DNA of 37,419 nt, from assembly GCA_002869365.1 (NCBI GenBank), contig PKTA01000096.1, forward strand, positions 2,149 through 39,567, written 5' to 3'. Position 1 is the stretch's first letter; the number at the start of each line of letters is the position of its first letter. A program made the translations under genes and the position numbers. The notes under the pieces are model-generated. The model worked only from the letters and a program-made list of their open reading frames with translations. It did not search any database and was not told where the DNA came from. Shown one piece after another: positions 16,992 to 25,453 of this stretch. Origin of the DNA: Marinilabiliales bacterium (lineage in GTDB: Bacteria > Bacteroidota > Bacteroidia > Bacteroidales > F082).

Positions 16992-18020
16992 GTGAAATTT
17001 ACAGCGCAGCAAATTGCTGAAGCACTAAGTGGAAAAGTTGATGGCGACCAAATGGCTGAAGTTGGAAACTTTGCCAAAATAGAAGATGGAAAAGCCGGAG
17101 ACATAAGTTTTCTGTCGAATCCAAAATATACAAGTTATTTATATACTACTAATGCTACCATAGTTATTGTAAGTGAGGATTTTGTGGCTGATAAAGAGAT
17201 TAATTCAACCTTAATACGGGTTAAAGATCCCTATGCTGCTTTTGCAACATTATTGGATTTTTACTATAAATCACTACCTGTACCCAAGGGAATTTCTAAG
17301 CAGGCAACAATAGCTTCTACGGCTAAAATTGGTGAGGATGTATTTATTGATGATTTTGTTGTAATTGGAGATAGTGTAATTATTGGAAACAATGCCAGAA
17401 TTTATTCGCATGTAAGCATAGCAGCAAACAGTAAAATAGGTAGCGAAACAATAATTAATTAAGGGGTTAGAATATATAGTGATACCAAAATTGGAAGTAA
17501 TTGCACTATCCATTCAGGAACAATAATTGGTTCTGATGGTTTTGGTTTTGCACCACAGGCTGGAAGCGATTACATAAAAATTCCTCAGATAGGTAATGTT
17601 ATTATTGAAGATTGGGTGGAGATTGGAGCAAATACTACCATCGACAGAGCAACAATGGGATCAACAATACTCAGGAAAGGAGTAAAAATTGATAATCTTA
17701 TACAAATTGCACATAATGTTGAGATAGGCGAGAATACAGTAATTGCAGCTCAAACGGGTATTTCAGGCTCAACCAAGATAGGCAGGAATTGTATGATAGG
17801 AGGTCAGGTTGGAATAATCGGACACCTTGTAATTGCTGATGGTGTAAAAATTGCTGCGCAATCAGGTATAGGAAAGAGTATAAAAGAAGAAAACGCAATA
17901 GTTGAAGGTTCTCCTGCTGTAAACATTAGGGATTTCCAAAGGTCTTATGTTCACTTCCGTCGCCTCGATAAATTAGTGAAGAGAATAGATGAAATTGAAA
18001 GAAGCCAAAAGAATAAATAG
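16992..18020 (+). pseudogene. lpxD: lpxD (UDP-3-O-acylglucosamine N-acyltransferase) interrupted by one in-frame TAA
   Basis: LpxD adds the second acyl chain in lipid A synthesis. From the GTG at 16992 one frame encodes a normal-length LpxD (343 codons including the stop) except for a TAA at 17460-17462 (codon 157). Before it lie the N-terminal nucleotide-binding domain and the first left-handed beta-helix coils. After it come [11 protein letters not shown], the catalytic His241 in [18 protein letters not shown] with His278, and the C-terminal helix. There is no frameshift. No ATG, GTG or TTG occurs in frame until GTG 17616, so restarted translation would miss 51 residues. Sequencing error, recent nonsense mutation or an altered gene are all possible. 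A paralogue, lpxD2, lies four genes downstream. lpxC follows after 59 bases. Confidence 0.85.
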
Positions 18021-18035: not shown

Positions 18036-18079
18036 CGCAAATTTTTTAATTGAAGGGTAGAAAATATACCCAGGTATTT

Positions 18080-19480
18080 ATGGCAGAAAAACAAAAGACC
18101 ATTGGGAAATCAATATCAGTTACCGGTAACGGATTGCATACCGGACAGAGTGGAACTATGACTTTTTATCCGGCTGAAGCAGACCACGGAATTAAGTTTC
18201 GCAGATCTGATCTTGAAAAAACCCCCATCATATCAGCAAATATCGATAATGTAATTGGAACCGCAAGGGGTACAACCATTGGCGAAAATGGTGCTAATGT
18301 ATTTACTATTGAACATGTTTTAGCAGCTTTTAGAGGTTTAGGAGTCGACAATGCTCTCATTGATTTAGATATGGAAGAAATTCCAATTCTGGATGGCTCT
18401 TCCCGATATTTTCTTGCAGCAATTAAAGAAGCAGGCATAGTAGACCTTGATAAAGACAGAGAGTTCATTGTTATTGATGAAGTTATAGAATATAAAGTTC
18501 CAGATAGTAAAATTGAAATAAAAATAGAACCTCACGATAGTTTTCAATTAGATGTTGAAATTGATTTTGAAAGCAGAGTGTTAGGTTATCAAAAGGCAGT
18601 TCTCAATGATATTTCATCCTTTGAGAAGGAAATATCTATGTGCCGTACATTTGTTTTTTTACATGAATTGGAGTTTTTACTTAGCAACGATCTTATAAAA
18701 GGTGGTGATTTGGCAAGTGCAATTGTTTTCGTTAACAGAGTTATTCCACAAAAGGAACTCGACAGACTTGCTAAGGTTTTTAATAAGCCAAGTGTAAAAG
18801 TTAAAAAAGAAGGTATTCTAAATAATTTAGAATTGCATTACGACAATGAGCCTGCACGACATAAACTACTGGATATTATAGGCGACCTGGCACTGTTGGG
18901 CAAGCCTATTAAGGGTAAAATAACTGCAAAACGTCCTGGTCATCAGTCGAATACGGAATTTGCAAAATTAATTAATCAACATTTAATAAAAAAAGAAGCC
19001 ATGTTAAAAGCACCCCCTTTTGATATTTATGCTAAACCATTATTTGATGTTATTCAAATACAAAAGATGTTACCTCATCGTCCTCCGTTTTTACTGGTCG
19101 ATAAAGTTCTTGAGATGAGTGATAATCATATCATTGGAATGAAGAGTGTAACAATGAATGAGCCCTTCTTTGTAGGTCACTTTCCGGAAGAACCATTAAT
19201 GCCGGGAGTATTACAAGTAGAAGCCATGGCACAAGTAGGTGGTATATTTGTACTTAATCAGGTTTCTGATCCGGAACTTTATTCAACTTATTTCCTTAAA
19301 ATAAATGATTGTAGATTCCGGGGAAAAGTAGTTCCCGGGGATGTTCTTGTATTTAGTATTGAATTAATTGCTCCAATAAAGAGAGGAATTTGTCAGATGA
19401 GGGGAAAAGCCTTTGTTGGAGAAAAACTTGTTATGGATGGAGAACTAACAGCCCAAATTGTTAAAAATAAAGAAAAGTAA
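18080..19480 (+). CDS. lpxC/fabZ: Bifunctional LpxC deacetylase / FabZ 3-hydroxyacyl-ACP dehydratase
   Basis: This is the fusion of the first committed enzyme of lipid A synthesis (LpxC, a zinc deacetylase) with the fatty acid dehydratase FabZ, characteristic of Bacteroidota. The LpxC part is residues about 1-305, with zinc ligands His79 (TIEHV), His261 and Asp265 (ARHKLLDIIGD) and His288 (PGHQS). The FabZ part runs from about 308 to 466, with catalytic His367 (GHFPEEPLMPGV) and Glu381 (QVEAMAQ). I chose ATG 18080; an upstream in-frame TTG at 18050 adds ten residues and sits close to the candidate promoter. LpxC and FabZ compete for the same hydroxyacyl-ACP pool, so the fusion fixes their ratio. 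lpxA follows after six bases. Confidence 0.96.
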   Translation: MAEKQKTIGKSISVTGNGLHTGQSGTMTFYPAEADHGIKFRRSDLEKTPIISANIDNVIGTARGTTIGENGANVFTIEHVLAAFRGLGVDNALIDLDMEEIPILDGSSRYFLAAIKEAGIVDLDKDREFIVIDEVIEYKVPDSKIEIKIEPHDSFQLDVEIDFESRVLGYQKAVLNDISSFEKEISMCRTFVFLHELEFLLSNDLIKGGDLASAIVFVNRVIPQKELDRLAKVFNKPSVKVKKEGILNNLELHYDNEPARHKLLDIIGDLALLGKPIKGKITAKRPGHQSNTEFAKLINQHLIKKEAMLKAPPFDIYAKPLFDVIQIQKMLPHRPPFLLVDKVLEMSDNHIIGMKSVTMNEPFFVGHFPEEPLMPGVLQVEAMAQVGGIFVLNQVSDPELYSTYFLKINDCRFRGKVVPGDVLVFSIELIAPIKRGICQMRGKAFVGEKLVMDGELTAQIVKNKEK

Positions 19481-19486
19481 GCTATT

Positions 19487-20296
19487 ATGAATCAACCACT
19501 AGCATATGTTCACCCACAAGCCAAAATAGCACCAAATGTTGTTATAGAGCCTTTTGTAAATATTGAAAAGAATGTGGTTATTGAGGAAGGCACTTGGATA
19601 GGATCCAGTGTCACTATTATGGAAGGTGCCCGAATTGGGAAGAATTGCAGAATTTTCCCTGGCGCAGTAATTTCTGCCATTCCTCAGGACTTAAAATTTG
19701 AAGGAGAAGAAAGTTTAGTTAAAATTGGTGATAATACCACTGTTAGAGAATTTGTTACCATTAACAGAGGTACCAAGGCAAATAATGAAACTTCAATTGG
19801 AAATAATTGTTTATTGATGGCTTATGTGCATGTTGCCCACGACTGTATTATTGGTAATAATGTTATACTTGCCAATGCCTGTAATCTGGGAGGTCATATA
19901 GAAATAGATGATTGGGCAATTGTTGGAGGTTTGTCGGCAGTACATCAGTTTGTGCATATTGGAAAACATGCCATGATTTCTGGTGGTAGTATGGTATTAA
20001 AAGATGTACCTCCGTTTTCAAAAGCAGGAAGAGATCCCCTTTCATTTATTGGAGTTAATTCCATCGGTTTGCGCCGAAGAGGTTTTACCAATGAAAGAAT
20101 AAATGAGATACAGGATATTTTCAGACACCTTTTCCTTAAGGGAAGAAATATATCACAGGCAGTAAGATTTATTGAAGCTAATCTTCCCGCAACGCCTGAT
20201 AGGGATGAGGTTCTTAGTTTTATTACAAATTCCCAAAGGGGAATTATGAAGGGGTATACTAGTATTAAAGACAAAAATGGATCCAGCGGATCATAA
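19487..20296 (+). CDS. lpxA: UDP-N-acetylglucosamine O-acyltransferase LpxA
   Basis: LpxA transfers a 3-hydroxyacyl chain from ACP to UDP-GlcNAc, the first step of lipid A synthesis, in the cytoplasm as a trimer. The 269-residue protein shows hexapeptide repeats of the left-handed beta helix from the start to about residue 190. The catalytic histidine is His118 in YVHVAHDC (equivalent to E. coli His125). NACNLGGHIEIDDWAIVGG and AVHQFVHIGKHAMISGG, typical of the family, follow. The C-terminal part (about 195-269) is the usual helical domain. It lies six bases after lpxC/fabZ and 18 before efp, clearly one operon. Confidence 0.96.
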   Translation: MNQPLAYVHPQAKIAPNVVIEPFVNIEKNVVIEEGTWIGSSVTIMEGARIGKNCRIFPGAVISAIPQDLKFEGEESLVKIGDNTTVREFVTINRGTKANNETSIGNNCLLMAYVHVAHDCIIGNNVILANACNLGGHIEIDDWAIVGGLSAVHQFVHIGKHAMISGGSMVLKDVPPFSKAGRDPLSFIGVNSIGLRRRGFTNERINEIQDIFRHLFLKGRNISQAVRFIEANLPATPDRDEVLSFITNSQRGIMKGYTSIKDKNGSSGS

Positions 20297-20314: not shown

Positions 20315-20881
20315 ATGGCAACAACAGCAGATATAAGAAATGGATTATGCATTGAGCATAATGGAGAACTTTGGATAGTAGTAGAGTTTCAGCATGTTAA
20401 GCCCGGTAAAGGTCCGGCATTTATAAGAACAAAACTTAAAAATGCTATTAGTGGTAAAGTGTTATCACATACTTTTACCTCCGGATTTAAAATTAATGTC
20501 CAAAGAATAGAGAACAGAAGTTATCAGTTTTTATACAGTGAAGGTGATGTTTATCATTTCATGAATAATGAAGATTTTGAACAAACTTTTATAAATGAAT
20601 CAATGATATCGGCTCCTCAACTACTTAAAGAAGGAGAGAATGTTACCATTGGATTTCACGCTGAAAACGAATCGGCAATATTTTGCGAAATGCCTACTTA
20701 TGTTACATTGGAAATAACATATACCGAGCCAGGTGAGAAAGGTAATACTGCAACAAATGCCTTTAAAGATGCTACTGTTGAAACCGGAGCAACCGTTAAG
20801 GTTCCCTTGTTTATAAACATAGGCGACAAGATTAAAATTGATACCCGTAACGGGTCTTATTCAGAAAGAGTTAAATCTTAG
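20315..20881 (+). CDS. efp: Translation elongation factor P
   Basis: EF-P rescues ribosomes stalled at polyproline stretches. The 188-residue product has all three beta domains. The loop that reaches the peptidyl-transferase centre is HVKPGKGPAF, with Lys32 at the position modified in E. coli EF-P. The C-terminal domain contains the family-typical NATKPATLETGATVKVPLF-like segment (here KDATVETGATVKVPLF) and NIGDKIKIDTRNGSY. No modifying enzyme gene is seen. It sits inside the lpx operon, between lpxA and lpxD2 (three-base gap), an arrangement repeated in related genomes; the functional reason is unknown. Confidence 0.96.
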   Translation: MATTADIRNGLCIEHNGELWIVVEFQHVKPGKGPAFIRTKLKNAISGKVLSHTFTSGFKINVQRIENRSYQFLYSEGDVYHFMNNEDFEQTFINESMISAPQLLKEGENVTIGFHAENESAIFCEMPTYVTLEITYTEPGEKGNTATNAFKDATVETGATVKVPLFINIGDKIKIDTRNGSYSERVKS

Positions 20882-20884
20882 ATA

Positions 20885-21820
20885 ATGGATTTTCCACATA
20901 AACTTTCAGTAAAGGAGATTGCTGAAATTATCAATGGTCGTCCATTGGGCGATATTGACGTTAATGCGTTGGGGTTGAATGAATTGCATGTAGTAAGGGA
21001 GGGTGATGTAACATTTGTAGACCATCCCAAATACTATAACAAAGTTCTAAACTCAAGAGCCAGTGTAGTTATTATTAATAAGGAAGTGGATGCACCTGAG
21101 GGGAAAACTCTTATTTTGCATGATCAACCCTTTAATGCATTTAATATTCTGATAAATAAATTCAGGGCTTTTAAACCCTCAGATAAGTTTATCAGTGAAA
21201 GTGCGATAATTGGTGAGAATACTTTTATCCAGCCCGGGGCTTTTATTGGCAACAATGTCAAAATAGGTGATAACTGTATAATTCATTCAAATGTAAGCGT
21301 TTACGATAATTCTGTTATTGGGAATAATGTAATTATACATTCCGGTAGTATTATCGGAGCCGATGCTTATTACTTTCAAAAAAGAGATGGAAAATTCTCA
21401 AAATTTCATTCAGGGGGTAGAGCAGTTATTGAGGATAATGTTGAGATAGGAGCCAATTGCTGTATTGATAAAGGCGTTACCGCTGATACAATTATTGGCT
21501 GTGGAACAAAATTCGATAATCATTGTCAGGTTGGACATGATACCATAATTGGAAAAAATTGTTTGATAGGTGCCTTTGCTGCCATAGCGGGCGTAACGAA
21601 AATTGAGGATGATGTAATTATTTGGGCAAGAGTTGCAATCAATAAAGATATAGTAATAGGAAAAGGCGCCGAAATTCTTGCTACTTCAGCCATTGACAAA
21701 TCAGTTGAAGGAGGAATTACTTATATGGGTTCTCCTGCCATTGAAGTGAAGAAATATTGGCGAAACATGATATTCATGAAACAATTGCCTGACCTTATTA
21801 AGTCGTTAAGAGATAAATAA
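20885..21820 (+). CDS. LpxD paralogue (LpxD2), UDP-3-O-acylglucosamine N-acyltransferase-like
   Basis: The 311-residue protein has an N-terminal LpxD-type domain (about 1-100), a left-handed beta-helix of hexapeptide repeats (about 105-280) and a short C-terminal helix. Within the helix, IIGADAYYFQKR replaces the usual GADGFGF segment. The catalytic histidine equivalent is kept: His218 in VGHDTIIG. The second histidine conserved in LpxD (His278 in the neighbouring lpxD, E. coli His276) aligns with Asp255 here. Such a second LpxD after efp recurs in Bacteroidota. Whether it acylates the same substrate, another UDP-sugar, or uses a different acyl chain is not known. Its stop codon abuts the stop of the converging ligase gene. 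Confidence 0.88.
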   Translation: MDFPHKLSVKEIAEIINGRPLGDIDVNALGLNELHVVREGDVTFVDHPKYYNKVLNSRASVVIINKEVDAPEGKTLILHDQPFNAFNILINKFRAFKPSDKFISESAIIGENTFIQPGAFIGNNVKIGDNCIIHSNVSVYDNSVIGNNVIIHSGSIIGADAYYFQKRDGKFSKFHSGGRAVIEDNVEIGANCCIDKGVTADTIIGCGTKFDNHCQVGHDTIIGKNCLIGAFAAIAGVTKIEDDVIIWARVAINKDIVIGKGAEILATSAIDKSVEGGITYMGSPAIEVKKYWRNMIFMKQLPDLIKSLRDK

Positions 21821-23290: not shown

Positions 23291-25453
23291 CTATTTCTTA
23301 CGGTTCTCGATGAACATTATGATAAATGAAGAAAACATTAAAGCAGCAAGTGCTGCAAGACCAACAATAATCCAACGTACCGGATATTCTTTCCTGTCGC
23401 TAACATAAGGTGCAGATACGATGTTGCTATATGTCATATGTGAATCTATAAAACGAACAGCCAGTTCGTAATCCAGTTTTACCTGCACGTACGTACGAGC
23501 TTCATTTTGAATCATCTCAGTAACTTCCAGTAGTTGACCACTATATTTTTCCATGTTTTTCTTTAGCCTTTCAACTTCTTTCTTATTAATTTTGCCAATG
23601 TTTCCATCGTAAGTTCCCAATAAACCTCTGAAAATTTCCTGTGATTGATTACTATACTCAATAATACCGTAATCTTCTCCCAATTCCTGAAGGATTGTTT
23701 TTAGCGAATCAATAGTATTTCTTTTTTTCTGTAACTGAAGTCGGTACATATCCGCAACCTCTATATATTTTGTTTTATGAAGGCGAGCCATTTTTTTATC
23801 GTAAAAATGAATTAGTGAGTTTACAATCATAGCAGCGGTATCAGGATTTTTATCTAATACATCTATTGAAACTGCCTCATAAGGAGTTTTTCCTATTTTT
23901 ATTTTCTCGCTATATTCATTATATAAAACCGATTTATAGTATTTATAGTTCTTGTCGATATTATAATGTTCGTCAAGTTTAAATTTATTAATAATACTAT
24001 CTTTAATGTCTTGAGAATTAAATATTTGCAACATCTGTTCTGTTTCACTTTCCTCTGAATAGGAATCAGTATTTGCAGGATATAAAACAGCATGTGATTT
24101 ATAAAGTGGTGTAATAAATGCAGGACCTGAAAAAATTCCTCCCAAAACCGCAGCAATAATTACAATCACCGTTAAATGCACTTTCCATTTATCCAATAAA
24201 CTCAATAATTCTGAACTGTTAAAAAATTTAGCCATCTCTATGTCGTTAATTTCGGTAATTACATAATCTTTATTTTCCTTTTGTTTATCTCTTTCTTCTT
24301 CATCTTTTTCCCCTAAATTTTCATTAGATAAAGTGTCGTCGAGTTTAATATTTTTCTGACTTTTTATATTTTGATCACCCTTATTATAATTAATATAATC
24401 AGGGATACTAATTTTTAGTCTTTTTTTTTTAATCTTGACTTCTATTCCACCGGAAAAAACCTCAATAAAACCCAATATTAACAATGCCAGCATAAAACTT
24501 GCAATTGTTGATATTAGTACTATTAACCATCTAATAGGATAGGTTTTTTTCTCGGCCTTATATGCGCTACTCACAATAAATTTATGTGGAAGACTCTCCG
24601 TTGCGTCAACTTTGGCCTCCTCGTATTTAGATCGTAATGCACTCAACTTTTTCTTGTCATGCTCAAGAGCATCTCTAATGGAAACATAAGGCCCTCCATA
24701 TTTGGCAAGCATATCAAGTTTCTTTTGAAGACGATTAACGCCCGCTTGATTACCTTTTGCCATTTCAATGGCCAACTGCCGGTTAAACATTTCCGATTGA
24801 CTCTCGTAATCATTAACTCCTAATCCACGTAAAACAGTTAGTGAATCTTCCTGAAGCCTTACCTGATTTTTTAGGTTTAAATATTCTTCTTCTACTATTT
24901 TAAATGCTCTAACAGCGATCTCCTTCTGCATATTGTTGATGGTAGAATCTACCAGTTCAGCAATGTCGTTTGCCATATCAGCAGCGAACTTTGGATTTTT
25001 GTCCAGCACAGAAATCTTTACTGCCATATATTCTGTACGTCTGAATTTGAATTTATCCTCATATTCATTATACAGATGTGTCATCTTATATTTGTCACCT
25101 TGCTTGATACCATAATGATCAAGTAAGTTATATTTATTGATAATTCTATCACGTATTTTATTAGAATTTAAAACCTGCAGCATTTGCTCAGTTTGCTCGT
25201 CTTCTCCAAATTCTAATATGTCTTTACTATTAACAAATGTTTCACTCAACAACACCTTTGAAATTGAATTGCTGGCTGTTGGATAAAGAATAACAGTTGA
25301 TTGATAAAGAGGTGTGATAAAATATGATGACGAAAATATTGACGAAAGAACTATAACAATTAAGGTAATGATGCTTAACTGTTTGTAGTATTTAAGCAGA
25401 ACTTGTAATAATATACCTGAAAAAAATGGTTTTTCTATCTGGTTTTTACCCAC
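23291..25453 (-). CDS. Tandem double Wzz-type polysaccharide chain-length determinant
   Basis: The 720-residue inner-membrane protein contains two complete Wzz/FepE-type units. Unit 1 has membrane segments near 28-48 and 309-333; unit 2 has them near 425-447 and 693-714, each with a coiled-coil periplasmic region between. The units align along their length: FITPLYQSTVILYP with FITPLYKSHAVLYP, EQTEQMLQVLNS with ESETEQMLQIFNS, and YPIRWLIV with YPVRWIIV. A charged cytoplasmic linker of about 70 residues (338-406) joins them. Met407 (ATG at 24235) opens unit 2 like an old start codon. Wzz proteins are normally single units forming rings. The ligase/polymerase gene follows after nine bases, and a good promoter lies upstream. 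No cytoplasmic kinase domain is present. Confidence 0.9.
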   Translation of the reverse strand: MGKNQIEKPFFSGILLQVLLKYYKQLSIITLIVIVLSSIFSSSYFITPLYQSTVILYPTASNSISKVLLSETFVNSKDILEFGEDEQTEQMLQVLNSNKIRDRIINKYNLLDHYGIKQGDKYKMTHLYNEYEDKFKFRRTEYMAVKISVLDKNPKFAADMANDIAELVDSTINNMQKEIAVRAFKIVEEEYLNLKNQVRLQEDSLTVLRGLGVNDYESQSEMFNRQLAIEMAKGNQAGVNRLQKKLDMLAKYGGPYVSIRDALEHDKKKLSALRSKYEEAKVDATESLPHKFIVSSAYKAEKKTYPIRWLIVLISTIASFMLALLILGFIEVFSGGIEVKIKKKRLKISIPDYINYNKGDQNIKSQKNIKLDDTLSNENLGEKDEEERDKQKENKDYVITEINDIEMAKFFNSSELLSLLDKWKVHLTVIVIIAAVLGGIFSGPAFITPLYKSHAVLYPANTDSYSEESETEQMLQIFNSQDIKDSIINKFKLDEHYNIDKNYKYYKSVLYNEYSEKIKIGKTPYEAVSIDVLDKNPDTAAMIVNSLIHFYDKKMARLHKTKYIEVADMYRLQLQKKRNTIDSLKTILQELGEDYGIIEYSNQSQEIFRGLLGTYDGNIGKINKKEVERLKKNMEKYSGQLLEVTEMIQNEARTYVQVKLDYELAVRFIDSHMTYSNIVSAPYVSDRKEYPVRWIIVGLAALAALMFSSFIIMFIENRKK

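Follow-up and report, generated by a model that had tools for sequence, protein, structure and literature searches.

An isolated in-frame stop codon in lpxD1 of a draft Marinilabiliales genome probably belongs to the sequence record rather than to the organism

We analyzed a 37,419-nucleotide stretch of DNA (the window) from the draft genome of a Marinilabiliales bacterium (G000; 223 contigs, 88.84% complete). The window carries a lipid A cluster in which lpxD1 is followed by an lpxC-fabZ fusion, lpxA, efp and a second lpxD-like gene, LpxD2, each of them intact (Table 1). The lpxD1 frame is interrupted by a TAA at codon 157. With X in place of the stop, the 342-residue product scored 366.2 bits against TIGR01853 (lipid_A_lpxD; cut-off 242.5), and the match runs over residues 7-331 and profile positions 1-324 of 325, nearly the entire profile. 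The site of the TAA is gap-free in the alignment to 29 relatives, ruling out an indel, and the catalytic His241 and the second active-site histidine, His278, align with the histidines of the relatives. Since LpxD-like sequence flanks the stop on both sides (156 and 185 codons), the interrupted frame is not a chance open frame. In profile coverage and in both histidines lpxD1 resembles known LpxD (TIGR01853; PDB 3eh0, 4ihg, 4e75), and its downstream half matches solved LpxD chains; it differs from them in that its record lacks an uninterrupted frame. The base directly 3' of the TAA is G, and the earliest in-frame ATG, GTG or TTG past it is the GTG at 17616, 51 codons on. The position of the stop, the intact LpxD-like sequence around it, the two histidines, the following G and the 51 codons free of a start had all been reported in a preliminary description of this DNA, and our profile matches and alignments bear them out. 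Restart at the GTG was set aside, as it would omit the 51 post-stop residues, the DGFG motif included. The assembly yielded no other intact copy of lpxD1 at the DNA level; the matches were lpxD1 itself and 68% over 192 bases in a further paralogue, LpxD3.

Table 1. Features of the lpxD1 locus, the LpxD paralogues and the other isolated in-frame stops of the same genome (plain numbers are window positions; other positions carry the handle of their stretch)
Feature	Position	Strand	Description
lpxD1 frame	16992..18020	+	GTG start at 16992, TAG end at 18018-18020; 342 codons, single internal stop
Isolated TAA, codon 157	17460..17462	+	In frame within lpxD1
lpxD1 upstream half	16992..17459	+	156 aa; LpxD N-terminal domain and first hexapeptide coils; PF04613 88.6 bits, Hexapep
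lpxD1 downstream half	17463..18017	+	185 codons; remaining left-handed beta-helix, more hexapeptide coils, both active-site histidines
lpxC-fabZ fusion	18050..19480	+	Next gene of lipid A cluster, intact; NF009667 657.5 bits, cut-off 465
lpxA	19487..20296	+	Intact; TIGR01852 317.7 bits, cut-off 231.05
efp (elongation factor P)	20315..20881	+	Intact; TIGR00038 223.6 bits, cut-off 185.8
LpxD2 paralogue	20885..21820	+	Intact frame, 311 aa, adjoins efp; Asp replaces second active-site His
LpxD3	L050:5196-6185, contig C148		Full-length open frame; TIGR01853 328.6 bits, cut-off 242.5
Hybrid histidine kinase, isolated stop	L169:17622		Scan of G000
CHU_C surface protein, isolated TGA	L179:12506		Scan of G000; 258 + 1 + 966 codons
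Outer-membrane barrel protein, isolated stop	L181:7663		Scan of G000; supported by spanning Pfam match only
CotH/beta-helix protein, isolated TGA	L237:11378		Scan of G000
2-oxoglutarate dehydrogenase E1, isolated TAA	L246:16516		Scan of G000
Radical SAM gene, isolated TGA	L248:18967		Scan of G000

The codon was compared in relatives, as the preliminary description had proposed. In 39 of 40 relatives the N-terminal half of LpxD1 matches without a stop inside an open frame 341 to 401 codons long. The fortieth, the congener G004, holds just the 3' part of the gene. A loss shared with G004, whose N-terminal half is seemingly missing, was rejected because its contig begins within lpxD1 and is uninformative on the site. 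All 29 aligned relatives have a sense codon at the position of the TAA (Ala in 12, Pro in 10, Ser in 6 and Tyr in 1); this alignment leaves out the window's own copy (L004), G004 and ten further relatives with an LpxD1 match but no locus. Of the 80 database loci fetched, the best 80 of 561, 79 extend across the site and all 79 likewise have a sense codon; these loci overlap with the 29 aligned relatives, apparently including G001, G003 and G004, so that the two counts are not independent. Among the best 80 of 561 loci, the closest relative with a complete lpxD1 shares about 70% of residues and is therefore too distant to date the change, and the nearest named records are metagenome bins, which carry the labels Chlorobiota, Bacteroidales and Bacteroidetes, with G004 labelled Marinilabiliales. 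By its relatives, the organism belongs to the uncultured Bacteroidota.

We evaluated the age of the change from the selection acting on lpxD1. Over the 145 of the 185 downstream residues that are present in G004, the window and G004 differ by a pN of 0.034 and a pS of 0.742, the latter saturated, and 139 of the 145 residues are identical. The downstream half of lpxD1 shows strong purifying selection, which implies that the stop is either very recent or absent from the organism. In relative-rate counts of the downstream half, window-only changes exceeded congener-only changes in seven of eight overlapping comparisons and tied in the eighth, with small margins throughout (from 9 vs 9 to 14 vs 8). 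The upstream half gave a window-branch excess with G001 as the ingroup (25 vs 13 and 28 vs 15) and none with G002 or G003 (19 to 23 vs 20 to 22). An old pseudogene was rejected, as the contrast between pN and pS and the counts of relative rate are far from what long decay would leave. Judging from these substitutions, the whole of lpxD1 was under selection until very recently, or is so still.

To place the TAA against the background of its own genome, we scanned for coding frames interrupted by a single stop, with coding sequence before and after the stop and at least 25 codons free of a start following it. The thresholds were our own and were revised between the initial and the reported run, and the frameshift part of the scan is uncalibrated. 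In G000 the scan covered 734,210 bases and brought up seven isolated in-frame stops, namely three TAA, three TGA and one TAG. The stretches were chosen non-randomly through tRNA and kinase or surface-protein matches, and they include the window on account of its stop; leaving out the window, the count is six in 696,791 bases. Frameshift-like breaks numbered zero in the same 734,210 bases. If random substitutions lay behind all seven stops, the rate would be about 2.3e-4 per base, given that 4.8% of substitutions make a stop in this codon usage. Another in-frame stop lies inside a homology match near a contig end of G000 (L165:250).

The genes split by the other six stops were compared with their counterparts in the genus (Table 1). 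2-Oxoglutarate dehydrogenase E1 forms a single uninterrupted frame in all four congeners, at 953-954 aa, and the CotH/beta-helix protein is likewise one frame, of 1004-1015 aa, in all four. The CHU_C surface protein is a single 1225-aa frame in G004, the same total length as in G000; in G002 and G003 the relatives reach a greater length, 3265 codons. The radical SAM gene found its sole match among the four congeners in G004, where it is open across the site before the contig breaks off. For the histidine kinase, a G004 frame aligns across the stop of G000, and the same contig carries a paralogue that is a single frame of about 1,100 codons, in which the sole stop within the match is its own end.

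The same scan was applied to two congeners, in stretches chosen mostly through kinase or surface-protein matches. The 411,366 bases of G003 yielded no isolated stop and no frameshift, and the 330,603 bases of G004 yielded three isolated stops and one frameshift. The stops of G004 lie at L230:1667, L225:12654 and L233:14226, and one of them splits monomeric isocitrate dehydrogenase. Had G003 the rate of G000, its sample should contain 3.9 stops, with a chance of 0.020 of finding none; with the window excluded the expectation is 3.5 and the chance 0.029. G003 is thus cleaner than G000, and G004 is about equally noisy. A separate homology search covered 146,818 bases of G000 without a frameshift pair and returned three such pairs from G003 and two from G004. 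The same search gave one isolated-stop candidate in G003, 18 stop rows in G004, which are unsorted, and 16 stop rows in G000, of which 11, from two queries with several stops per match, were discounted as probably antisense frames.

We infer that the cause of the interruption lies in the sequence record rather than in the cell, and that the TAA of lpxD1 probably stands in the record but not in the organism. The TAA would have been created by the erroneous substitution of one base in the consensus of the draft assembly, which is probably a metagenome bin like its named relatives, and lpxD1 in the organism would most likely be intact and encode an ordinary LpxD. We favor this reading because the stop is isolated, the relatives are intact, the downstream half has evolved under purifying selection and like stops are present in other conserved genes of G000. 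Isolated premature stops can arise from consensus errors in draft assemblies, and stops of this origin resemble that of lpxD1 in being one substitution-type break, free of further decay, that recurs in several unrelated genes with mixed stop types. They also go with a raised background of isolated breaks in the assembly, which G000 displays (seven in 734 kb as against none in 411 kb of G003). The finding that enzymes of lipid A synthesis and of central carbon metabolism are both hit, through substitutions alone and by stops of all three types, suggests noise in the record. Among the four options that the preliminary description had listed (an assembly or read error, a very recent nonsense mutation, suppression, and dependence on LpxD2), the first is best supported, given six more stops in 734 kb and no frameshift-like break. 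A search of open-licence literature in which all terms were required found no paper on premature stops or errors in metagenome-assembled genomes.

Several results nevertheless weigh against an error of the record. In principle, all seven stops of G000 might exist as real alleles in the population that was sampled, and the relatives are too distant to give the change a date. The comparison with G003 draws on the non-random samples described above, and the homology search raised a candidate stop in G003 as well. The slight window-branch excess in the downstream half also points away from an error.

A genuine and very recent nonsense allele, carried by part or all of the sampled population and unfixed in the species, is the second of the listed options and is unlikely, albeit worth weighing. 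The stop is clean and the rest of lpxD1 undamaged, and a second gene above the equivalog cut-off, LpxD3, could make the loss survivable. Against this, real gene decay usually also brings indels, and the six other isolated stops of the G000 sample, unaccompanied by any frameshift-like break, resemble base errors.

A real and fixed loss of lpxD1, with N-acylation of lipid A taken over by LpxD3, appears very doubtful. Three genes of G000 match the LpxD domain family (lpxD1, LpxD2 and LpxD3), and LpxD3 is the first candidate for a replacement if lpxD1 is truly lost, because it passes the equivalog cut-off and keeps both histidines and LpxD2 does neither. Both histidines are kept in all five aligned LpxD3 copies; the gene is carried by all five genomes of the genus that were compared, and the copies of the four congeners are full-length and 77-85% identical. 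However, lpxD1 stays open beside LpxD3 in all three congeners in which lpxD1 is fully assembled, and the downstream half of the interrupted gene is still conserved. The C-terminal end of LpxD3 is also shorter in the alignment, and it is mainly at the C-terminal domain that ACP binds in E. coli LpxD, according to PMC6286764. A lineage that is now losing LpxD1, with LpxD3 in its place, would represent a natural swap of an essential acyltransferase for a paralogue, a scenario to which we give little credence.

Dependence on LpxD2 alone, which the preliminary description had raised, is highly improbable. LpxD2 is intact, belongs to the same cluster, keeps the catalytic histidine and clears the threshold of NF002060, a broader subfamily model (254.3 vs 207), but it reaches just 223.8 bits against TIGR01853, under the equivalog cut-off of 242.5. 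It is without a coil stretch, its DGFG region is altered in all four aligned copies, and all four have Asp at the position of His278. Among papers bearing on the LpxD histidines (PMC3087551, PMC6820557 and PMC6286764), the last reports for the E. coli enzyme that H276A cuts kcat 32-fold and that the catalytic H239 contributes almost three orders of magnitude to kcat. LpxD2 may have a substrate different from that of LpxD. The preliminary description had allowed that a normal LpxD elsewhere in the genome would remove the dependence on LpxD2, and the intact LpxD above the equivalog cut-off on contig C148 does so. Nothing relevant to LpxD2 in Bacteroidetes, or to multiple lpxD copies in Bacteroides, was among the matches listed in an open-licence literature search.

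Translational readthrough, suppression or code reassignment at the TAA is scarcely credible: the frame is intact and conserved on either side of the stop, but TAA terminates 22 of the 28 ORFs of the window (23 of 29 with the internal stop of lpxD1 included), the isolated stops of the G000 sample include all three types, the relatives examined show no stop at the site, and a stop-reading anticodon is absent from the 31 tRNAs found in G000, a count in which one could be missed, given the incomplete genome and the scoring of 150 of 266 first-look candidates. Code reassignment and a suppressor tRNA were set aside on these results, and the suppression suggested in the preliminary description is accordingly unlikely.

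If the TAA is an error of the record, as we think probable, little biology follows from it. In practice, a lone stop in a draft genome needs to be weighed against the stop background of its own assembly before the gene is taken as lost. Should the stop prove real, the genus would provide a setting in which to ask if a divergent paralogue of LpxD is able to stand in for the standard enzyme.

Elsewhere in the window, positions 23291-25453 encode in a single frame a 720-aa protein that by eye consists of two similar halves. Its counterpart in G004 (L044, near 6841) has a frameshift-like break between its two parts.
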